Positions 1-36,371 of a DNA stretch of 64,000 bases are shown here, in pieces. The notes under the pieces are model-generated. The model saw only the letters and a list, made by a program, of their open reading frames with translations, was not told the origin of the DNA and searched no databases. Origin of the DNA: an uncultured SAR116 cluster alpha proteobacterium (GTDB lineage: Bacteria > Pseudomonadota > Alphaproteobacteria > Puniceispirillales > GCA-002684695). The stretch is from positions 1 to 64,000 of the forward strand of contig CACAIE010000005.1 in assembly GCA_902532475.1 (NCBI GenBank). The letters run 5' to 3'. The translations under genes and the position numbers were made by a program. Each line of letters starts with the position of its first letter. Position 1 is the stretch's first letter.

Positions 1-1689
1 TTAGGGAATGAAACTTTTGCAGATTTACTAGCTGAGAGCTTTGCAGAAAACTCTAAAATAGAAGGAAGTGTAGTTAAAGGTACAATTGTAAGCATTGAAA
101 ATGATGTCGCTTTAGTTGACGTTGGTTTAAAATCTGAGGGAAGAATATCTCTAAAAGAATTTTCTCCTCCTGGAGTAAAAACTGAAATTAAAACAGGCGA
201 TACAGTTGATGTTTATATTGAAAAAATAGAAGGAAAAAATGGTGACACTGTTTTAAGTAGAGAAAAAGCGAAAAGGGAAGAAACTTGGTCAATTTTAGAG
301 ATAGCACAAAAAAAACAAGAGCGTGTGAATGGTATAATTTTTGGTAAAGTTAAAGGAGGATTTACAGTTGATTTAGATGGTGCAACAGCTTTTTTGCCTG
401 GAAGTCAAGTAGATATTCGACCTATAAAAGATCTCAATACTATTATGGGAGGACCTCAAGCTTTTTTAATTTTAAAAATGGATAGAAAAAGAGGTAACAT
501 AGTTGTTTCAAGGAGAGCCGTACTCGAGGAATCAAGAGCTGAGGCCAGAACTGAGTTAGTTTCCAATCTTGGGGAAGGCCAAGTACTAAAAGGAATAGTC
601 AAAAATATCACTGATTATGGAGCTTTTATTGATTTAGGTGGAGTAGATGGATTATTACATGTAACTGACATTGCTTGGAAAAGAGTTTTGCACCCTTCTG
701 AAGTTCTTAGTTTGGGGGATACTGTAACAGTGCAAGTTATCAAATTTAACACCGAAACACAAAGAATATCCCTCGGCATGAAACAACTTGAGGATGATCC
801 TTGGAATTCAATTGAGAGTAAGTACCCATTAGGCTCAAAAACAAAAGGAAGAATCACAAATATTACTGACTATGGAGCTTTTGTTGAATTAGACCCAGGC
901 ATCGAAGGATTAGTTCACATAACCGAAATAAGCTGGACTAAAAAAAATATTCACCCTGGGAAAATAGTTTCAACTAGTGAACAAGTAGAAGTGATGATTT
1001 TAGATATTGAAGAATCAAAGAGAAGAATATCTCTCGGTTTGAAACAGTGTATTAATAATCCTTGGCAAGAATTCCTTGACAAGAATCCAATTGGCACCGA
1101 AATAGAAGGAGAAATTAGAAATATAACTGAATTTGGTTTATTTGTTGCTGTTTCTGAACAATTAGACGGTCTAGTGCATTTGTCTGATATTTCTTGGGAG
1201 GGAAATACCGAAGAAATATTATCAAAGTACAATAAAGGTGACCAAGTAAAAACAAAAGTACTAGATGCTAATGTTGAAAATGAAAGAATTGCTCTAGGGA
1301 TCAAGCAACTAGAACCAGATCCTTTTGCAGATGGTTCGTTAAAATTAAAGCGCGGAAATATTATAACCTGTATTGTTGAAACTAGCAATGACCAAGGGCT
1401 TGAAGTAGGAGTTAATGATGGATTGAAAGGTTTTATTCGTAAATCTGAGCTCTCAAGAGATAGAGATGAACAAAGACCTGATCGTTTTGCAAAAGGAGAT
1501 AAAGTTGATGCACAAATTACTAATATTGATAAAAAATCTAGAAAGTTAACTCTATCAATCAAAGCAAGGGAAATACTTGAAGAGAAAAAAGCAATGAAAG
1601 ACTATGGGTCTTCTGATAGTGGAGCAACGTTAGGTGATATTTTAGGTGTTGCCTTAAATGTTGATAAAAAAAATGCAAAAGAAAAGTAG
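1..1689 (+). CDS. rpsA: 30S ribosomal protein S1 (5' truncated by window edge)
   Basis: Frame 1 is open from base 1 (LGNETFADLLAESFAENSKIEGSVVKGTIVSI...) and continuous with the ORF at 325; multiple S1 repeats (GxVKNITDYGAFIDLGGVDGLLHVTDI). The track start at 325 is internal. Confidence 0.97.
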   Translation, partial: LGNETFADLLAESFAENSKIEGSVVKGTIVSIENDVALVDVGLKSEGRISLKEFSPPGVKTEIKTGDTVDVYIEKIEGKNGDTVLSREKAKREETWSILEIAQKKQERVNGIIFGKVKGGFTVDLDGATAFLPGSQVDIRPIKDLNTIMGGPQAFLILKMDRKRGNIVVSRRAVLEESRAEARTELVSNLGEGQVLKGIVKNITDYGAFIDLGGVDGLLHVTDIAWKRVLHPSEVLSLGDTVTVQVIKFNTETQRISLGMKQLEDDPWNSIESKYPLGSKTKGRITNITDYGAFVELDPGIEGLVHITEISWTKKNIHPGKIVSTSEQVEVMILDIEESKRRISLGLKQCINNPWQEFLDKNPIGTEIEGEIRNITEFGLFVAVSEQLDGLVHLSDISWEGNTEEILSKYNKGDQVKTKVLDANVENERIALGIKQLEPDPFADGSLKLKRGNIITCIVETSNDQGLEVGVNDGLKGFIRKSELSRDRDEQRPDRFAKGDKVDAQITNIDKKSRKLTLSIKAREILEEKKAMKDYGSSDSGATLGDILGVALNVDKKNAKEK

Positions 1690-1757
1690 ATTGTTTCCTT
1701 CAAACCTTGACCAAACTTTAAAACTTATGCAATTTTATAACTTAAAGGGATGAGTTT

Positions 1758-2036
1758 ATGACAAAATCAGAACTAATTGCAAAAATAGCTTATAAATACC
1801 CAACCCTATATTTAAGTGATGTGGAGAAAATTGTTCTTACTATAATAAAAACTGTTTCAGAATCTATTACTTCAGGTAATCGCGTAGAGCTACGTGGTTT
1901 TGGAACATTTGGTTTAAAAACCATGAAGGCTAGGAAAAGCAGGAACCCTAGAACTGGCAAAACTGTTTTTGTAGAATCTAAATCGGTACCCTATTTCAGA
2001 ATGGGAAAAAAACTTAAAGAACGAATAAATAATTAG
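1758..2036 (+). CDS. ihfB: Integration host factor subunit beta
   Basis: HU/IHF fold with RNPRTGKTVFVESKSVPYFRMGKKLKERI; located directly after rpsA. Confidence 0.93.
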   Translation: MTKSELIAKIAYKYPTLYLSDVEKIVLTIIKTVSESITSGNRVELRGFGTFGLKTMKARKSRNPRTGKTVFVESKSVPYFRMGKKLKERINN

Positions 2037-2048
2037 TTTTAAATAATT

Positions 2049-2279
2049 ATGAGAAATTTGACAAAATTTTTTTCATTGATTCTGACACTACCTTTAATAA
2101 TATTTTTCTCAATTTTTACTATCTCAAATTCAAACATAACATATCTTAGTTTTTGGCCCTTTGAACAAAAATTGATTATGCCTATCTGGGCTTTATCTAT
2201 AAGCTTTTTTTTTCTTGGTTTATTAATTGGATGTGCCATTATGAAAATGACTTATATTAAAAAGAGGTTGTTTAAGTAA
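2049..2279 (+). CDS. LapA domain-containing membrane protein
   Basis: 76 aa, two TM segments, conserved position between ihfB and trpF. Confidence 0.7.
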   Translation: MRNLTKFFSLILTLPLIIFFSIFTISNSNITYLSFWPFEQKLIMPIWALSISFFFLGLLIGCAIMKMTYIKKRLFK

Positions 2280-2322
2280 GAAATCAAAAAATTATTATAA
2301 AATTTTGGGTAACTTAGAGTTT

Positions 2323-2964
2323 ATGGTTGAAATTAAAATATGCGGAATAAAAAGAGAAAAAGATTTAAAAACCATCATAGATCTAAATGTTACTTGGGCT
2401 GGGTTTGTTTTTTATAATAAATCCGTTAGATCTATAAATCGAAATGATCAAATCAAATTATTTAAAATTGCAAAAAACAAAATTGGTATCGTGGCTCTTT
2501 TTGTAGATCCAGAAGATACGCTTATTGAGGAAGTTACCACATTAATAAAACCTGATCTTATCCAATTACACGGTTCTGAAACCCCTGACAGGTGCAAGGA
2601 TATAAAGTTTAAAACAGGCATACCTGTTATGAAAGCTATACAATTAAATAAAATAGAAAATCTAAAAACAGTTTCAGAGTATGAAAATAAAGTTGATAGG
2701 CTATTGTTTGATGCTAAACTAACTGAAGAAAAATTAAGAGGAATTAATACCAAGCCATTTGAATGGCAAATAATTAAACATTATGAAGGAAAAAAAGAAT
2801 GGATGCTTGCGGGTGGATTAAACTCTAACAATATTGAGAACGCAATTAAAGAAAGCGGTGCTAGAGCTGTAGATGTTTCTGGTGGTGTTGAAATATCACC
2901 TGGAATTAAAAGTAAAAAATTAATTAAAAAGTTCATTGGTTGTGCGAATGAACTTTATCGCTAA
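2323..2964 (+). CDS. trpF: Phosphoribosylanthranilate isomerase
   Basis: MVEIKICGIKREKD start motif, GVFV-like core, LAGGLNSNNIENAI, VDVSGGVE; next to trpB. Start moved from 2305 to 2323. Confidence 0.94.
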   Translation: MVEIKICGIKREKDLKTIIDLNVTWAGFVFYNKSVRSINRNDQIKLFKIAKNKIGIVALFVDPEDTLIEEVTTLIKPDLIQLHGSETPDRCKDIKFKTGIPVMKAIQLNKIENLKTVSEYENKVDRLLFDAKLTEEKLRGINTKPFEWQIIKHYEGKKEWMLAGGLNSNNIENAIKESGARAVDVSGGVEISPGIKSKKLIKKFIGCANELYR

Positions 2965-2982
2965 ACAAAATTTTATAATAGT

Positions 2983-4209
2983 ATGCAAAACAAAGTAAAA
3001 CAAAATTCATTTAAAAATCAACCTTCTGAAGATGGAAAGTTTGGAGTATATGGTGGAATGTTTGTTGCTGAAACATTAATGCCTCTGATTTTGGAAGTTT
3101 CAAAATTTTATAATAAATTAAAAACTAATAAATTCTTTCAAGAAAAAATAAAATTTTATCAGAAAAATTATATTGGTAGGCCATCACCACTTTATTTTGC
3201 TGAAAGAATAACAAATTATTGCAATGGCGCTAAAATTTATTTTAAAAGAGATGAATTAAATCATACAGGAGCCCATAAGATCAACAATGTGATTGGTCAA
3301 GCATTATTAGCTAAGGAAATGGGAAAAAATAAAATCATAGCTGAAACAGGAGCTGGTCAACATGGGGTAGCTACAGCAACTGTTTGCGCACTATTTGACA
3401 TGAAATGTGAAGTTTTTATGGGTCAAGAAGATATTGAACGCCAGAGACCGAACGTTGAAAGAATGCAATTACTGGGGGCTAAAATTATTCCTGTTTTATC
3501 GGGTACAGGAACATTAAAAGATGCCATGAATGAAGCACTCAGATATTGGGTATCCAATGCTAAAACTCATTTTTATATAATAGGCACTGTTGCAGGCCCA
3601 CATCCTTACCCTATGATGGTTAGAGATTTTCAATCTATAATTGGTGAAGAGGCCAAATCTCAGATACTAGAAATTGAAAACAAACTGCCCAATAAACTTG
3701 TAGCTTGTATTGGTGGCGGATCAAATGCTATGGGTCTTTTTTATCCGTTTTTAGACGAGAAAAAAGTTGAAATAATTGGTGTTGAGGCTGGAGGTGAAGG
3801 GATACATTCAGGAAAACATGCTGCCTCTCTATCGGGTGGGAAACCAGGTGTTTTGCATGGAAATAAAACTTATTTACTCCAAGATAGTGATGGTCAAATA
3901 ATTGATGCACATTCAATTTCAGCTGGATTAGATTACCCAGGTATTGGCCCAGAACATTCTTGGCTTAACGATATTGGAAGAGTTAAATATGAAACATGTA
4001 CAGATGAAAATGCTCTTGAATCTTTTTTTCTTTGTTCGCAACTAGAAGGAATTATTCCTGCTTTAGAACCCTCACATGCATTATATGTTACGATGAAAAT
4101 TGCTAAAAAAATGAAGCCGAATGAAATTATTATTATGAATTTATGTGGGAGGGGTGACAAAGATCTTACCTCGGTATTACCAAAGTTAAAGAAAATGGGA
4201 AAATTTTAA
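2983..4209 (+). CDS. trpB: Tryptophan synthase beta subunit
   Basis: [14 protein letters not shown], [31 protein letters not shown]. Confidence 0.98.
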
Positions 4210-4212
4210 TAT

Positions 4213-5040
4213 ATGGGAACAAACAGAATATCCAATCTTTTTAACAGATTAAAAAAAAATAAAAGATCTGGATTAGGAATTTTCATTACAGCAGGAGATC
4301 CAAATATAAAGATTTCGCAATGTATATTAAATGAGCTTCCTAAAAATGGAGCAGATTTTATAGAATTAGGCATGCCATTTTCTGATCCAATGGCAGATGG
4401 ACCAGTAATCCAAGCGTCATCATTAAGGGCATTAAATGCAGGCATGAATTTGTCAAAAATACTTTCGATGGTCAAAAACTTTAGAAAAATAAATAATTAT
4501 ACACCTATTATTTTGATGGGTTATTTTAACCCTATATTTAATTTTGGTGCAGAAAAATTTGTTCGTGAATCCAAAAATGCTGGGGTCGATGGCTTTATAA
4601 TTGTTGATTTACCTCCAGAAGAAGATAAAGAGTTTTTTGATCCCGTTTCAAATTGTGCCTTAGATTTTATTAGATTAATAACTCCCACAACAGATGCTAA
4701 ACGTCTAAAGATGATATTAAAAAAATCTTCTGGTTTCCTTTACTATGTAACTATCACAGGCACAACTGGAACAAAAAAGGCGACTATCAAAGATATAAAA
4801 AGTTCATTATCACTCATAAATAGATTTTCAGATCTTCCAGTAGCCGTTGGGTTTGGAATAACTACAAAAACACAAATTTCTGAAATTTCTGAAATTGCTG
4901 ATGCCGCAGTTGTTGGTAGTCATATTGTAAAATTTATTGAGAATTCATATTCTGAACATAATTCTTTGGATGATAGAACTGTTTTAAATATTCAAAATGA
5001 AGTAAAACATTTATCATCTGGGATAAAAGTATTGGAATAA
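4213..5040 (+). CDS. trpA: Tryptophan synthase alpha subunit
   Basis: FITAGDP, FIELGMPFSDPMADGPVIQ, YYVTITGTTG. Confidence 0.98.
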   Translation: MGTNRISNLFNRLKKNKRSGLGIFITAGDPNIKISQCILNELPKNGADFIELGMPFSDPMADGPVIQASSLRALNAGMNLSKILSMVKNFRKINNYTPIILMGYFNPIFNFGAEKFVRESKNAGVDGFIIVDLPPEEDKEFFDPVSNCALDFIRLITPTTDAKRLKMILKKSSGFLYYVTITGTTGTKKATIKDIKSSLSLINRFSDLPVAVGFGITTKTQISEISEIADAAVVGSHIVKFIENSYSEHNSLDDRTVLNIQNEVKHLSSGIKVLE

Positions 5041-5908: not shown

Positions 5909-7204
5909 ATGCCATTAATCAATCTAAATAAAATATTAATATCATTACAAGATTATCATCCTAAATACATTGATCTTAATTTAAATAGAATATACCGTTT
6001 ATTGAAAGATTTAGGTGACCCACATTTGAATCTTCCACCAACTATACATGTTGCTGGAACAAATGGTAAAGGCTCTACAATAGCGTTTTTAAAATCTATT
6101 TTAGAGTATGGCGGATTAAAAGTACATGTATACACGTCCCCCCATTTAGTAAGTTTTAATGAGAGAATTAGGATTAAGGGTCAATTAATAACTGATGAAT
6201 TTTTATCTGAATTATTACTTGAAGTTGAAAAAATTAATAATAAAAAAGAAATTACTTTTTTTGAATTTACAACTGCGGCTGCTTTCCTCGCCTTTTCAAG
6301 AGTTAAAGCTGATATATTATTATTAGAAGTTGGCCTTGGTGGAAGATTAGACGCTACTAATGTTGTCCCAAATATACTTGCTTCAATAATTACAAGAATA
6401 TCTTTTGACCATGAACATTTTTTAGGCAATACCCTTTCTTTAATTACTCGAGAAAAATGTGGGATAATTAAAAAGGAAACCCCAGTAATAACAATGCACC
6501 AAGGGGAAAATATTAATCAAATAATAAAAAAGACTTCAATTAAATTAAATGCTCCACTGTCTATAATCAATAAGAAAGATTTCATATTAGGAAAAAAAAG
6601 ATTTTCATTTAAATATAATAATAAAATCATTGAATCTCCTTTACCTTCTCTAAGAGGAAAGCATCAGCATGAAAATAGTGCCCTGGCTTTAACTTGTTTA
6701 AACATAGTTTCCCAAAAGCTAAATAAGTTTAATTTAAGCAGGTCAATTAATGGATTAAAAAAAGTAAGATGGCCGGCTAGAACACAATTTTTAGATAGTG
6801 GTAAGTTGATTAAATTAGTTTATAAAAAACAAAGATTAATTGTTCTTGATGGAGCTCATAATACCTTAGGAGCTAAATCTCTTAAAGAAGTCTTGAAAGA
6901 ATTTAGTGATAATTGGTTATTAATTTTTGGTTACCTTAAAACTAGAAAGCCACAAGAGTTTTTAGAGGAATTAAGAAGTATTTCCAGTGAAATTATAACA
7001 GTTAAAATCCCTGAGCAAAATGAAAGTTACTCTTCAAAGAAATTATTAAAGGCTGCAAAAATGATTGGGTTTTCAGGCTATGCTTCAACATCAATTGTTG
7101 ACGCTTTTAATAAAGCAGAAGAAAGCAATTTATGTATATGTATATGTGGGTCTCTTTATTTAGCTGGAAAAATTTTAAGTATGAATGAAACAGTTCCTAA
7201 CTAA
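5909..7204 (+). CDS. folC: Bifunctional folylpolyglutamate/dihydrofolate synthase
   Basis: HVAGTNGKGS, YTSPHLVSFNERI, EVGLGGRLDATN, VLDGAHN. Confidence 0.96.
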   Translation: MPLINLNKILISLQDYHPKYIDLNLNRIYRLLKDLGDPHLNLPPTIHVAGTNGKGSTIAFLKSILEYGGLKVHVYTSPHLVSFNERIRIKGQLITDEFLSELLLEVEKINNKKEITFFEFTTAAAFLAFSRVKADILLLEVGLGGRLDATNVVPNILASIITRISFDHEHFLGNTLSLITREKCGIIKKETPVITMHQGENINQIIKKTSIKLNAPLSIINKKDFILGKKRFSFKYNNKIIESPLPSLRGKHQHENSALALTCLNIVSQKLNKFNLSRSINGLKKVRWPARTQFLDSGKLIKLVYKKQRLIVLDGAHNTLGAKSLKEVLKEFSDNWLLIFGYLKTRKPQEFLEELRSISSEIITVKIPEQNESYSSKKLLKAAKMIGFSGYASTSIVDAFNKAEESNLCICICGSLYLAGKILSMNETVPN

Positions 7205-7520
7205 TATTTTCACTTATCCACTCAGATAGTTTTGCCTTTGAAAGGGCTCCGATTTTTTCAGCTATTACTTCACCATTTCTAAACAGAAGTAAAGTAGGGA
7301 TGCCTCTAACACCATACTGTTGAGGAGTTGAAGGGTTTTCATCAATATTTAATTTTGTAACCCTTATATCCTCTTTCATCTCTTCAGAAATTTCCTCTAA
7401 TGCAGGGCCTATCATTTTACATGGTCCGCACCACTCAGCCCAAAAATCAACTAAAGTCAAACTGTCTGATTTCAGTACTTCTTTCTCAAAGTTAGTGTCA
7501 TTTATTTTTATTGAAGCCAT
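7197..7520 (-). CDS. trxA: Thioredoxin
   Basis: WAEWCGPCK active site; 107 aa; 3' end overlaps convergent folC by about 8 bp. Confidence 0.97.
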   Translation of the reverse strand: MASIKINDTNFEKEVLKSDSLTLVDFWAEWCGPCKMIGPALEEISEEMKEDIRVTKLNIDENPSTPQQYGVRGIPTLLLFRNGEVIAEKIGALSKAKLSEWISENIS

Positions 7521-7603: not shown

Positions 7604-9031
7604 TTATAAAAATTGATTTTCAATGTCAGAAATTAATTTATCAAAATCCTTTAGTTGATTTAATTTTTCAACATTATTTTCATTTTCATACTTTGCTTTA
7701 AGATCATCTGATTCTTTGCATGCCTTTGGAATAGTGTTCCATTTTTCGTTATTCATGCTTAAAATTTGGTTTGCTATAGAATTATGAATTTTTTTATAAA
7801 TATCTTTAGGAAGAGTTGAAGGGTGTTCTTCATATATTAATCTCATCCCAAAATAAAAAAGCCTTTCATCGTTGAAGCTATCACATATACTTAACCTTTC
7901 ATCCCATTCAGCTTTATGAAATTTTTCCATGATCTGTTTGTCACTATTGGAAAAAAACCCACCTCTATACAAACTTTCCTCTGCTTGTATCTCCTCTTGA
8001 GATTCAAAGTCACTTTTGAATTCATGTTCCTCTTTAAGTATTGTGGATAAAAGCGACTTAAACTCTTCATTATTTTGAATCTGTGTTGCTCTTTCAATAT
8101 AGATGCCTTCATTTATATCATTGTAGTTATCAAACTTTGAATAGTTTTTGTAATTCATAATAATAGGATTTTTATTATTTTTAATGCTTCTTATAATTTT
8201 GGGACTTTTGGAAATCTCTCTTGATAATTCATTCTTGGACATGTTTAAATATATTTTGGGGTCATTAATTAAGTCAAAACATTGAGGCCATTGATAAACT
8301 GGATGATCACAAACATGTGTTAGAAGAAAAGGTTTCGGTTTTCCATAAAAATAGTCATTGTAACAAAATAATAGTTCATTTTTTATTGTTTTATTAACTT
8401 CAGATTTAGAAGCATTTTTTAGGCCTGAAAGCCAAATTTCATTCGCGTTTTTACATAAAATTTTTCCTATCTCTTTTGTTGCTATAACATCACCTAAAGC
8501 ATCGTGAGCTATATGATTAATTTCATTCATAGGAGCAATTTCATCTAATTTTAGAACGGGGTTCCCTTTTGAGTTGGTTGAATAATTTAACGCTTCCGGA
8601 AAGTAAAGACAGGCACTTCTCACCATGCCTAAAATATCAGCTCTTTTATTCCCATTAAGTTGAGTAAAGTATGGATTATAAAGAGATTTAAATAGAGTTT
8701 TTCTTAAAAACTCTTCATCGAAATTAATTGAATTATAGCCAATGAATATAGCAGGTGACCACTCTTGAAGCTTCTTAATCACTTTATCAATTAAATAATA
8801 ATGGGTTAAGTTTGAGTTTTTAAGCATTTCTGTTGAAGAATTATTTACTAAGAGAGCGCCAGGCTCTGGAACCAGACCTGGCTTTAATGAGCATCTTAAT
8901 TCAATTTTATCTATCTCTTGAAAGCTTAAATTAACTAATACTGCTCCAACTTGAATTATCTGATCCCAATTAGAATTTCTTCCAGTAGTTTCAAAATCAT
9001 ACACTACTAATTTAAGGTTCTCATCTATCAT
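7604..9031 (-). CDS. sbcB: Exodeoxyribonuclease I (DEDD exonuclease)
   Basis: VVYDFETTGRNSNWDQIIQVGAVLV, IFIGYNSINFDEEFLRKT, HIAHDALGDVIAT; ExoI-like length and C-terminal region. Confidence 0.85.
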   Translation of the reverse strand: MIDENLKLVVYDFETTGRNSNWDQIIQVGAVLVNLSFQEIDKIELRCSLKPGLVPEPGALLVNNSSTEMLKNSNLTHYYLIDKVIKKLQEWSPAIFIGYNSINFDEEFLRKTLFKSLYNPYFTQLNGNKRADILGMVRSACLYFPEALNYSTNSKGNPVLKLDEIAPMNEINHIAHDALGDVIATKEIGKILCKNANEIWLSGLKNASKSEVNKTIKNELLFCYNDYFYGKPKPFLLTHVCDHPVYQWPQCFDLINDPKIYLNMSKNELSREISKSPKIIRSIKNNKNPIIMNYKNYSKFDNYNDINEGIYIERATQIQNNEEFKSLLSTILKEEHEFKSDFESQEEIQAEESLYRGGFFSNSDKQIMEKFHKAEWDERLSICDSFNDERLFYFGMRLIYEEHPSTLPKDIYKKIHNSIANQILSMNNEKWNTIPKACKESDDLKAKYENENNVEKLNQLKDFDKLISDIENQFL

Positions 9032-9468
9032 AAAAAATTACATGAAATTGATTTTACTTGTATTTCTCTTTTACTAGGAATTTTATCAATAAAATCAAAT
9101 CTTATGCTAGTCCTAATTTTAGGAATAATATTATCTAATTTTTCTGGCCACTCAATGATAGATATTGCTTTACTGAAAGCTTCATCAAGGTCTAAATCAT
9201 TAATGTCAACGCTATTGTTTAATCTATAAAAATCCATGTGCCAGATTTCTGGACCTTTATATGGTTGATAAGTTTGGATAATATTATAAGTAGGTGAAGT
9301 TACGTCAATATCTTCCTTCATCAAACTTCGTATAAAAAATTTAGCAAAAGTAGTTTTACCTACTCCAAGAGGTCCAGAAAGTGTTATAACATCACCTTCT
9401 GAACAATTTTTGGAAGTTTCAGAAGCTAGTTTTTTTAATTTTTTCAGGTTAAAAAAGTTGCTTATTTT
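9028..9468 (-). CDS. tsaE: tRNA threonylcarbamoyladenosine biosynthesis protein TsaE (5' end unresolved)
   Basis: Upstream of the track ORF the frame reads ISNFFNLKKLKKLASETSKNCSEGDVITLSGPLGVGKTTFAKFFIRSLMKED (P-loop), then ...HMDFYRL...; no ATG/GTG/TTG start before the in-frame stop. Confidence 0.85.
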   Translation of the reverse strand, partial: KISNFFNLKKLKKLASETSKNCSEGDVITLSGPLGVGKTTFAKFFIRSLMKEDIDVTSPTYNIIQTYQPYKGPEIWHMDFYRLNNSVDINDLDLDEAFSKAISIIEWPEKLDNIIPKIRTSIRFDFIDKIPSKREIQVKSISCNFL

Positions 9469-9479
9469 TTAGTCCCCAA

Positions 9480-10880
9480 CTAATACCTATATTGATCAGA
9501 TTTAAAGGGGCCATTAGACGTAATGCCTATATAGCTTAACTGTTCTTCACTTAACTTAGTTAAAGTGGCGCCTACTTTTGACAAATGTAATTCTGCTACC
9601 TTCTCATCTAATTTTCTTGGAAGAGTATAAACTTTATTGTCATAGGCATCGTTATTATTAAAAATTTCCATTTGGGCTAAAACCTGATTAGTAAATGAGG
9701 CAGACATTACAAAACTAGGGTGACCTGTAGCACAACCAAGGTTAACTAATCTTCCTTTAGCGAGCATGATTATTTTTTTTCCATCTGGAAATTTTACTTC
9801 ATCCACTTGCGGTTTAATCTCATCCCATATCATATTATTTAGACCACTAATTTGAATTTCAGAGTCAAAATGGCCGATATTGCATACAACTGCCCTATCC
9901 TTCATTTCTCGCATATGATCAACAGTAATAACGTCTTTATTTCCAGTTGCAGTAACAAAAATATCTGCTTTTGATGCAGCTTGATCCATCGTTACAACTT
10001 CATAACCTTCCATTGCCGCTTGAAGAGCACAAATTGGGTCAATTTCAGTAACCATAACCCTGGCACCACCTTGTCGCAATGAAGCTGCAGATCCTTTTCC
10101 AACATCCCCAAAACCACACACTACCGCTACCTTACCAGCTAGCATTACATCTGTGGCACGTTTTATTCCATCTACCAAGCTTTCCCTGCAACCATATAAA
10201 TTATCAAACTTTGACTTTGTAACACTATCATTGACATTTATAGCAGGAAAAGGTAGGTCCCCTTTTTCTGACATCTGGTATAATCTCAAAACTCCTGTAG
10301 TGGTTTCTTCGGATACACCCTTTAGGTTGTTTTTAACCTCACCAAACCAACCCGGACTTAACTTTATCCTTTTTAAGATTTGAGCCTTCATGGCCTCTTC
10401 TTCTTCATTTTCTGGATTTTTTAATACTTCTTCACCTGCTTCCATTTTAGATCCAAAAATAATATAGGAAGTAGCATCACCCCCATCATCTAATATCATA
10501 TTAGGATAGCCACCATCACTCCAAGTAAATATCTTGTCTACATACTCCCAATATTCTTCAACAGTTTCACCTTTTTTTGCAAAAACAGGAATACCCGCTT
10601 TGGCAATCACGGCCGCAGCATGGTCTTGAGTTGAAAAAATATTACAACTGGCCCAACGAATATCTGCTCCTAAGTTTTCTAATGTCTCAATTAAAACCGC
10701 AGTTTGAATCGTCATATGAAGACAACCGGCTATTCTTGCGCCTTTTAAAACTTTGGATTTACCGTATTCTTCTCTAATAGACATTAGTCCAGGCATTTCT
10801 GTTTCAGCAATATCTAATTCTTTTCTGCCCCAATCAGCCAATGAAATATCTGTTACAACAAAATCTTCCGCAGATGACAT
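9480..10880 (-). CDS. ahcY: Adenosylhomocysteinase
   Basis: [55 protein letters not shown]. Confidence 0.98.
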
Positions 10881-28361: not shown

Positions 28362-28454
28362 TTATTTTGAATTATTTATAACACATTCCCCAGCCCATCC
28401 AGAGCAGAAAAAAGTATTAAAATGGTTATAGTTATCAATAATATTTGATGACAT
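28362..28454 (-). CDS. Candidate 30-aa small protein MSSNIIDNYNHFNTFFCSGWAGECVINNSK
   Basis: Short ATG ORF with an unusual CSGWAGEC segment in a locally AT-rich gap; not in the ORF track. Confidence 0.3.
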   Translation of the reverse strand: MSSNIIDNYNHFNTFFCSGWAGECVINNSK

Positions 28455-28593
28455 TATGATATCAAATGTTAAACAACCCAAAACTATTATTAAAAGAATA
28501 AATATTGGGCTAGTATTAGAAAAATTATTCATAAACCCTCCTATTCATATTATATATATGATTATTAATTCCTTAATTTTCAAGAGGGTTTTT

Positions 28594-29010: not shown

Positions 29011-29083
29011 TTAATTATTTAATTTTTTTACAATTTATACGTTAATATATATTATTCTCTAAACTATTTAGGATTTAAGAGAC

Positions 29084-29632
29084 ATGAAATTAGTGGGTTA
29101 TGCAAGAGAAGGCAAGTCTAGAGAAACACTTGATGCTCAAATAACTTCTCTTATGGATTATGGGTTAAAACTTGATAATATTTTTAAAGAAAGAAGATCT
29201 TATTTGGACGGCGAAAGGCCTGTGCTTAGTGAATGTATTAATACACTAGAACCTAGAGACACTCTTGTCGTAACCAGTTTAAATCAAATCGCAAAAAGCA
29301 TTAACCATCTCACGCATTTAAAATCTTCTCTCGAAGAAAAGGAAGTTGATTTTATTGTCATCAATCAAGGGATAGACACATCAATAAAACAAAATTTAGA
29401 TCTATTTTCAATGATAACGATTTTCTCTGAGTTTGAAATGAACTTAAGGCTTGAAAGACAACTGGAAGGCATCCAAAAAGCTAAGGAAAGTGGTGTCAGG
29501 TTTGGAAGAAAACCAATAGATAACAGAGTAATTCAAAATGTTAAAAAGTTGTTTTTGGATGGAATGAGTGTAGGGCAAATATCTATAAAGCTTGCTTTGG
29601 GAAGATCCACAATCTATAGATTACTGAAATAA
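29084..29632 (+). CDS. Small serine recombinase (resolvase/invertase) family protein with degenerate active site
   Basis: Full-length resolvase architecture: GYAREGKSRETLDAQ ... EFEMNLRLERQLEGIQKAKESGVRFGRK plus HTH GMSVGQISIKLALGRSTIYRLLK. Ser10 position is Gly. Confidence 0.9.
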   Translation: MKLVGYAREGKSRETLDAQITSLMDYGLKLDNIFKERRSYLDGERPVLSECINTLEPRDTLVVTSLNQIAKSINHLTHLKSSLEEKEVDFIVINQGIDTSIKQNLDLFSMITIFSEFEMNLRLERQLEGIQKAKESGVRFGRKPIDNRVIQNVKKLFLDGMSVGQISIKLALGRSTIYRLLK

Positions 29633-29670: not shown

Positions 29671-30309
29671 ATGAAAAATTTAAATGTATCCAAGATAGAC
29701 AAGAAGGTTGTTAACTATCTTAAAGTTGGTTTAACTTCAATGAGTAATAATAAAAGTCGATATATTTCTTTTCCCTTTCTAACTGATTCAACAATTGTAG
29801 AACTTACAAATCAAGTGTCCAAATTTAGATTTAGGAAAGCTACGCCTTTAGCAGGTAATTCTGTTACTCAAGATTTTGATATTTGTTTCCCTGCACCTAG
29901 AATTGGCAAAATAGATCATTTAGCAACATCAATAGAAAATTTATTTAGTCATGCTCTTAGGTTGATGTATAAACCACCAATTAAATACCCCAAATTTAAT
30001 GATGTTGCTATTCAAAGATATAAACCTGGTTCATTAGGAATTTCTCCACATAAAGACCATAAAAAATATATTTCAGTTATAATAATAATAACACTATCAG
30101 GCAAATCTGACTTGTGTATTTGTGAGGATAGAAAAGGTTTAAATCCATTAGTTCTAAATGACATTCCAGGTAATATTGTTGTCTTGCCTGCATCTGAATT
30201 TATTACTTTAAATAATAATTGTATTAGACCATTTCACTTTGTTAATAATATTGCAAATGGTAGACTTTCTATAGGACTTAGACAAAATAGTGAAATTATA
30301 CTCCAATAA
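29671..30309 (+). CDS. AlkB-like 2OG-Fe(II) oxygenase
   Basis: YKPGSLGISPHKDH (HxD), RPFHFVNNIANGRLSIGLR (distal H and R). Confidence 0.65.
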   Translation: MKNLNVSKIDKKVVNYLKVGLTSMSNNKSRYISFPFLTDSTIVELTNQVSKFRFRKATPLAGNSVTQDFDICFPAPRIGKIDHLATSIENLFSHALRLMYKPPIKYPKFNDVAIQRYKPGSLGISPHKDHKKYISVIIIITLSGKSDLCICEDRKGLNPLVLNDIPGNIVVLPASEFITLNNNCIRPFHFVNNIANGRLSIGLRQNSEIILQ

Positions 30310-34970: not shown

Positions 34971-36371
34971 TTATTTGCAATTTTTTGCAATTTGATGGAT
35001 TGCTGCCATTGAATCATCAACTTTATCAAACATTTCATTTACCTGCTCTTCTGAAATAATTAGTGGCGGACAAAACCCAATCACGTCACCTGGAAGTGAT
35101 CTCAAAATAACACCATTATTTTGAATTACCTTTGCTGACTGGGCCGCAATTTTCTTTTTTACATCAAATTTCTTGTTTTCATCATAACCAAATTCTATTG
35201 CCCCTATAAGACCAACTGAACGGCTGTGACTTACAAACCAATTATTTTTAAAAATTTTCTTTATGCGTTCACCAAATGCCTTAGATACTTTCTGTACATT
35301 AGAAATTATATTTCTCTCTATCATAATCTGTTGTGCTTTTAATGCTACTGCTGCGCAAACTGGATGGGCTGAATAAGTATACCCATGGCCAAAAATACCC
35401 AATTCATTGGCTTGACTTTCAATCGGCTTATATACCTTTTCAGACAATATAACTGCAGAAATAGGTAAATATGCAGACGATAGAGCTTTTGCCGTAGTAA
35501 TTATGTCAGGCTTAATATTAAATGTTTCTGACCCCCACATATTTCCAGTTCTGCCAAAACCACAAATAACTTCATCTGCAACCATTAAAATATCATGTTT
35601 GTTTAAGATTTTTTGAATTTTTGGGAAATATGATTCTGGAGGTATTATAACGCCTCCAGCACCCATAACAGGTTCTGCAAAAAAAGCAGCAATTGTCTCT
35701 GGACCTTCTTCCAAGATTAACGTTTCTAGCTCTTTAGCTAACCTATCAGAAAAAGTTGCTTCATTTTCATTGGTTAAAGATTCATTAAAATAATCTGGTG
35801 CCATGGTATGCAAAACAAAGTCTAGAGGAAGTGAAAATCCATCCTGGGCGTAAGACATTCCAGTCAAACTGGCTGCTGCAAGTGTCACACCATGGTAACC
35901 TCTTTTTCTGCTTATAATTTTCTTTTTATTCGGCAAGCCTCTTGCCAAACTATAATACCAAATCATTTTTATCGCTGTATCATTTGCCTCTGAACCTGAA
36001 TTTGCAAAGAAAACTTTGCTCATGTTAACAGGTGAAATCTTAATCAAATGTTCAGCTAAATCTATGGCAGGATTTGCAGTTTTACCAGCAAAACTATGGT
36101 AAAAAGGAAGCATTTTAAGTTGTTCAGTGATTGTATTGATCAATTCATTTTCAGAAAAACCTAAAGAGGCACACCACAGCCCACTCATGCCTTCTATAAA
36201 TTTTTTTCCTGTATCATCAAAAACATATATTCCTTCACCTTTATTGATAATATGAGGTCCCTCTTTTAAAAGAGTACTTGGGTGCGTATAAGAGTGGAAA
36301 TGAAACTCTATATCTCTACTATAATCAGAATTCCCTTCAAATTTTTTATCATCATACATGTTGCCCACCAT
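34971..36371 (-). CDS. Class III (omega-amine type) aminotransferase
   Basis: MSGLWCASLGFSENELI, FFANSGSEANDTAIKM, ADEVICGFGRTGNMWG, TTAKALSSAYLPISAV. Confidence 0.93.
   Translation of the reverse strand: MVGNMYDDKKFEGNSDYSRDIEFHFHSYTHPSTLLKEGPHIINKGEGIYVFDDTGKKFIEGMSGLWCASLGFSENELINTITEQLKMLPFYHSFAGKTANPAIDLAEHLIKISPVNMSKVFFANSGSEANDTAIKMIWYYSLARGLPNKKKIISRKRGYHGVTLAAASLTGMSYAQDGFSLPLDFVLHTMAPDYFNESLTNENEATFSDRLAKELETLILEEGPETIAAFFAEPVMGAGGVIIPPESYFPKIQKILNKHDILMVADEVICGFGRTGNMWGSETFNIKPDIITTAKALSSAYLPISAVILSEKVYKPIESQANELGIFGHGYTYSAHPVCAAVALKAQQIMIERNIISNVQKVSKAFGERIKKIFKNNWFVSHSRSVGLIGAIEFGYDENKKFDVKKKIAAQSAKVIQNNGVILRSLPGDVIGFCPPLIISEEQVNEMFDKVDDSMAAIHQIAKNCK

Follow-up and report, generated by a model that had tools for sequence, protein, structure and literature searches.

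Small serine recombinases recombine DNA at crossover sites of 26-28 bp, and those adopted by cells are usually retained for DNA chemistry, namely phase inversion, resolution and developmental excision. The Tn3 resolvase (TnpR) autoregulates tnpR and tnpA through binding to res (PMC7157771), and its residues R8 and R68 touch the scissile phosphate (PMC4499144). In the S10A mutant of this resolvase catalysis is abolished and synaptic complexes still form (PMC4499144); an S10A subunit is also still usable at the regulatory sites II/III (PMC9943657). Active resolvases are already known to double as repressors, in a non-catalytic capacity. In a review of mobile-element recruitment, the terms searched brought up no case of a non-catalytic serine recombinase (PMC8987985). 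No resident resolvase family wholly without catalysis was found in the literature searched, in which subscription journals are thinly covered and a description may be missed.

The window (the whole stretch of 64,000 nucleotides that was analysed) comes from a 1.9-Mb draft genome, 65% complete, of a SAR116-cluster alphaproteobacterium. The first-pass annotation had described one of its genes as an intact serine recombinase ORF that has lost its catalytic residues, and had proposed that the product is a repurposed DNA-binding protein.

A small serine recombinase with an altered active site

The gene and the domains of its product are located as follows.

29084..29632, + strand: ORF of a putatively inactive small serine recombinase; 182 aa from an ATG start, uninterrupted by stops; an orthologue in each of three other genomes of the genus
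29093..29497, + strand: Resolvase (catalytic-fold) domain, residues 4-138; Pfam PF00239, 3.6e-24
29504..29629, + strand: Gly-Arg arm and C-terminal helix-turn-helix, residues 141-182; Pfam PF02796 (HTH_7), 1.5e-6 over residues 141-181

Both Pfam matches exceed the gathering cut-off, and searches of the PDB returned the Tn3 resolvase (7.1e-18) and the gamma-delta resolvase (1.3e-17), with matches spanning residues 1-181. NCBIfam and PHROGs gave just generic recombinase families. The gamma-delta resolvase is 30% identical to the protein and aligns without gaps up to residue 143, with G5, Y6, A7 and R8 retained, so its numbering had been applied correctly. Judged by sequence, the protein is by descent a member of the resolvase/invertase (small serine recombinase) superfamily. 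The helix E region used for dimerisation is retained (EFEM.LRLERQL) and the C-terminal helix-turn-helix appears intact, as had been claimed for both. A structure model built from only four sequences (AF2) is of moderate confidence (pLDDT 64, pTM 0.47) and too weak to judge the active-site pocket; its best Foldseek matches are the gamma-delta, Sin and Tn3 resolvases.

Compared with the gamma-delta resolvase, the window protein carries the substitutions S10 to G, D67 to N, R68 to Q, R71 to K and R119 to M, and a Glu in place of Asp36. The first four were those listed by the first-pass annotation, and all are seen in the alignment. Residues Y6, R8, S39, R45, D59, E118, E124 and R125 are retained. 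The three catalytic positions highlighted are the following.

29111..29113, + strand: codon GGC, Gly10 replacing the nucleophile Ser10; Gly in 4/4 orthologues, Ser in 16/16 aligned comparators and in three further relatives
29282..29287, + strand: Asn67-Gln68 replacing the catalytic Asp67-Arg68; NQ in 4/4 orthologues; of the 16 comparators, all have Arg68 and 15 have Asp67
29294..29296, + strand: Lys71 replacing Arg71, not conserved; Arg in two orthologues

G10, N67, Q68 and M119 are common to the window protein and its three orthologues, which come from independent assemblies; a sequencing error or chance can therefore be dismissed as the source of these substitutions. Gly10 and Gln68 thus hold across the clade. 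Lys71, which was to be checked as part of the same combination, does not: position 71 reads K, K, R, R in the four orthologues and is no clade marker. M119 is a weak marker because relatives of the catalytic type also carry T or A at this position. From the catalytic arginine set R8/R45/R68/R71, then, R8 and R45 are kept, R68 is Gln in all four proteins, and position 71 is split evenly between Lys and Arg. With Ser10, Asp67 and Arg68 replaced in 4/4 orthologues, and given the precedent of the Tn3 S10A mutant, the protein is probably catalytically dead, in line with the original proposal.

Distribution and phylogeny of the gene

Of the four other genomes in the genus, three encode an orthologue (63-67% identity), the named records being the SAR116-cluster alphaproteobacteria CPC30, AG-891-F06 and AG-899-J15. 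In the fourth genome (G002), which is 61% complete, the neighbouring genes likewise went undetected at orthologue level, so that absence of the gene there is uninformative. Beyond the genus, among 136 genomes of the order, 385 of the class and 399 of the phylum, only more distant relatives were detected; their E values were no better than 8.6e-41, compared with ~1e-104 for the orthologues. A motif-seeded scan of 84,980 species returned nothing except the three known orthologues, and a scan of viral contigs gave two distant matches only, one active-type small recombinase and one longer protein, both with Ser10.

S10, R68 and R71 are present in 16/16 aligned comparators, 15 of which also have D67; these were sampled by similarity to this family, and the result covers its nearest relatives and not all serine recombinases. 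The catalytic type is likewise seen in three more relatives, one of which, at 39% identity, is the closest detected; this makes 19 other relatives examined, every one with S10, R68 and R71. In a maximum-likelihood tree the four orthologues form a single clade (support 100/100). Its stem is long (1.6 changes per column) and the later branches are short, a shape that reflects a burst of change followed by constraint. The loss of Ser10, Asp67 and Arg68 is fixed in this one genus-level clade, which is represented by four genomes, two of them near-identical, that amount to three lineages. No homologue with Ser10 occupies the same locus (0/4).

The window's genome encodes one further recombinase and perhaps a second. 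Locus L021 (G000:C24) carries an active-type small serine recombinase at 6745-7296 and, 1 kb further on (8316-10058), a possible large serine recombinase of 580 aa that begins CYIRVSTQEQTKGFSLDTQ. This stretch is rich in small ORFs and may be a mobile island. At 1677-4235 of the same locus, consecutive similar ORFs share ETLTMDDLV.R.G.YYKK.T..PFTG and make up a family of tandem genes whose products are probably secreted repeat proteins.

Selection and chromosomal context

The reading frame is open in 4/4 genomes. For F06/J15, the sole unsaturated pair, dN/dS is 0.112 (Nei-Gojobori; dS 0.105, dN 0.012); the remaining pairs give 0.12-0.15 with saturated dS. Five neighbour genes compared in the same F06/J15 pair range from 0.07 to 0.40. 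The gene is under purifying selection, like its neighbours, and the relaxed selection that would mark a dying gene was not observed. A pseudogene is dismissed on the open frames and the dN/dS of 0.11-0.15.

Gene order around the recombinase is conserved in the genus over about 20 kb, from ~18.5 to 38 kb of the window, the F06 contig ending earlier. It comprises a MATE exporter, a TauD-like oxygenase, a MAPEG protein, the recombinase homologue, a conserved protein at 29671 and an EamA transporter. Other families of the order have the 29671 gene in a different context and without a recombinase, so the arrangement that includes one is particular to this genus. The recombinase homologue is a genus-specific gene of the core chromosome at a fixed place. 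The four genomes are collinear across the locus, with no rearrangement among them. Inverted repeats within 7 kb of the gene are AT-rich or imperfect only, and none flanks a segment inverted among the genomes. The earlier statement that no invertible segment or transposon lies alongside thus stands, and no paired recombination sites were found within 7 kb either. A mobile element is dismissed on the conserved gene order, which holds no element remnants. No Rfam family was detected near the gene.

Two neighbouring ORFs were also recorded. The protein encoded directly downstream (29671-30309, + strand) has no Pfam match and is conserved in 55/136 genomes of the order; in family f2 its homologue adjoins the aminotransferase that sits at 34971-36371 in the window. 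On the - strand, 28365-28532 is a small ORF of 56 aa without a Pfam match; it has a conserved FFCSGWAG stretch and probably one membrane segment, and its counterparts in three sister genomes are 55-58% identical (tblastn 1e-19 to 1e-20).

A candidate operator at the start of the gene

Two features were noted immediately upstream of the ORF.

29055..29083, no strand assigned: candidate operator, a 29-bp inverted repeat with 9-bp arms and an 11-bp spacer; same place in 4/4 genomes, exact in three
29027..29055, + strand: weak match TTTACA-17-TATTAT to a sigma-70-like promoter, immediately 5' of the inverted repeat

An inverted repeat at its own start, as expected of an autoregulated repressor, is thus present in all four genomes as a candidate site. 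It runs up to the base that precedes the ATG and overlaps the likely ribosome-binding site. Its pattern, TTCTCTAAA-N11-TTTAAAGAA, is imperfect in the window: the consensus TTCTYTAAA-N11-TTTARAGAA is exact in G001, G003 and G004, and the window's genome has two mismatches. Since an arm mismatch breaks the seed of the repeat finder, which missed the site, we relied on column shuffles and control genes instead. Over three lineages the arms pair at 23/27 positions. Joint column shuffles equalled the inverted-repeat score in 1/1000 and 0/300 cases (z = 4.1, with an arm length of 9 bp picked after inspection of the sequence; arms of 8, 10 and 11 bp give z = 3.5, 2.3 and 2.8). The upstream regions of nine neighbouring genes, most of them less conserved than the operator region, reached a best z of 1.75 under the same treatment. 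The 29-bp repeat is a likely operator site of the protein. Two points count against this reading: 29 bp is an odd length, where crossover sites in the family have 26-28 bp, and the repeat carries mismatches in the window's own genome. The promoter match is missing from both orthologues in which it was sought, sigma-70-like matches in the region occur at chance number, and no terminators were found there.

The exact pattern is unique genome-wide in three of the four genomes, partly by construction since it was drawn from these sites. Within the window, allowing three mismatches, there are three matches against 1.4 expected. A search of the four genomes with the 29-bp pattern and at most two mismatches found no second site recurring in both deep lineages. 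Genome-wide the pattern is not enriched, and the backwards control gave more matches; together these two results mean that no regulon can be claimed.

Proposed function and alternative explanations

The intact helix-turn-helix, the repeat at the gene's own start and the missing nucleophile are best explained by a DNA-binding dimer that regulates its own gene and no longer recombines DNA. We consider it probable, on balance, that the protein is a domesticated dimer of this kind, repressing its own gene and perhaps regulating others. DNA binding is suggested by the intact helix-turn-helix. The dimer would bind the 29-bp repeat with one helix-turn-helix on each arm and would, when bound, cover the gene start and the ribosome-binding site. 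It may thereby repress its own expression as the Tn3 resolvase does via res, and further target genes are likely. Between the two roles first suggested for a repurposed protein, that of a regulator is better supported; no specific support was obtained for nucleoid bridging.

That second, architectural role, in which the protein would bridge the DNA it binds, as a component of the nucleoid or of loops, instead of regulating particular genes, is unlikely but not negligible. Catalytically dead resolvase still makes synaptic complexes (PMC4499144), resolvase dimers can pair sites without catalysis, and the helix E region is kept; against it, the candidate site shows no clear excess in the window and none genome-wide over the backwards control.

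It seems unlikely that the recombinase was exapted in this genus into a dedicated transcription factor that regulates its own gene and whose old pocket is selected for another use, for example ligand sensing. The reuse of the active-site pocket for ligand sensing or other chemistry, taken by itself, is decidedly doubtful. Y6, R8, S39, R45, D59, E124 and R125 are invariant in a clade where only 95/182 columns are; these positions are, however, also structural and conserved superfamily-wide, no ligand is known, and the pLDDT of 64 precludes pocket analysis.

We see a similarly small chance that the protein is an antagonist, occupying recombination sites or forming mixed dimers with the active recombinases of incoming elements and so giving immunity against mobile DNA. 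The window's genome does encode an active-type relative (G000:C24, 35% identity), but the other three gene-bearing genomes (83-88% complete) hold no other match at E <= 0.001, and such a role would therefore have no conserved partner; the long stem also makes shared sites or mixed dimers unlikely.

Continued recombination through Ser12 or another nucleophile is very improbable. Ser12 is invariant in the clade, yet the Tn3 and gamma-delta resolvases have it too and Tn3 S10A is dead (PMC4499144, PMC9943657); Arg68, which contacts the scissile phosphate (PMC4499144), is also lost, and the four genomes show no rearrangement. A decaying mobile-element remnant whose frame is not yet lost would fit the restriction to one genus and the fast change on the stem but is scarcely credible, since all four genomes keep the frame open across saturated synonymous divergence at low dN/dS, share the same substitutions and have a conserved gene order free of element remnants.

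The autoregulating DNA-binding dimer remains the reading that we prefer. A genus-wide resident family that lacks Ser10, Asp67 and Arg68 and is still under selection offers a tractable case of a recombinase turning regulator, and the candidate 29-bp operator gives a concrete DNA site for testing that role.

Comparison with known systems

The protein shares its 182-aa length, domain order, fold, dimerisation helix region and HTH_7 domain with small serine recombinases such as gamma-delta/Tn3 TnpR, Gin and Hin. Unlike these, it lacks Ser10, Asp67 and Arg68, and its gene is a resident of the core chromosome, without a transposon, a res array or an invertible segment. The active-type proteobacterial relatives L045, L002, L028 and L085, the nearest by tree or identity (35-39%), have the same architecture and carry the full set S10, D67, R68 and R71, which the window protein does not. 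Autorepression through a site at the start of the gene, as proposed here, resembles the repression of tnpR and tnpA by Tn3 resolvase through res (PMC7157771); the SAR116-cluster gene differs in having one inverted repeat only, no transposase gene in divergent orientation and, as the residues predict, a product without catalysis. The closest parallel in the active site is with the laboratory S10A mutants of Tn3 resolvase (PMC4499144, PMC9943657), in which the nucleophile is likewise gone, the fold is kept, and binding and synapsis survive, whereas the loss in the SAR116-cluster protein is natural, fixed in its clade and accompanied by further active-site changes.
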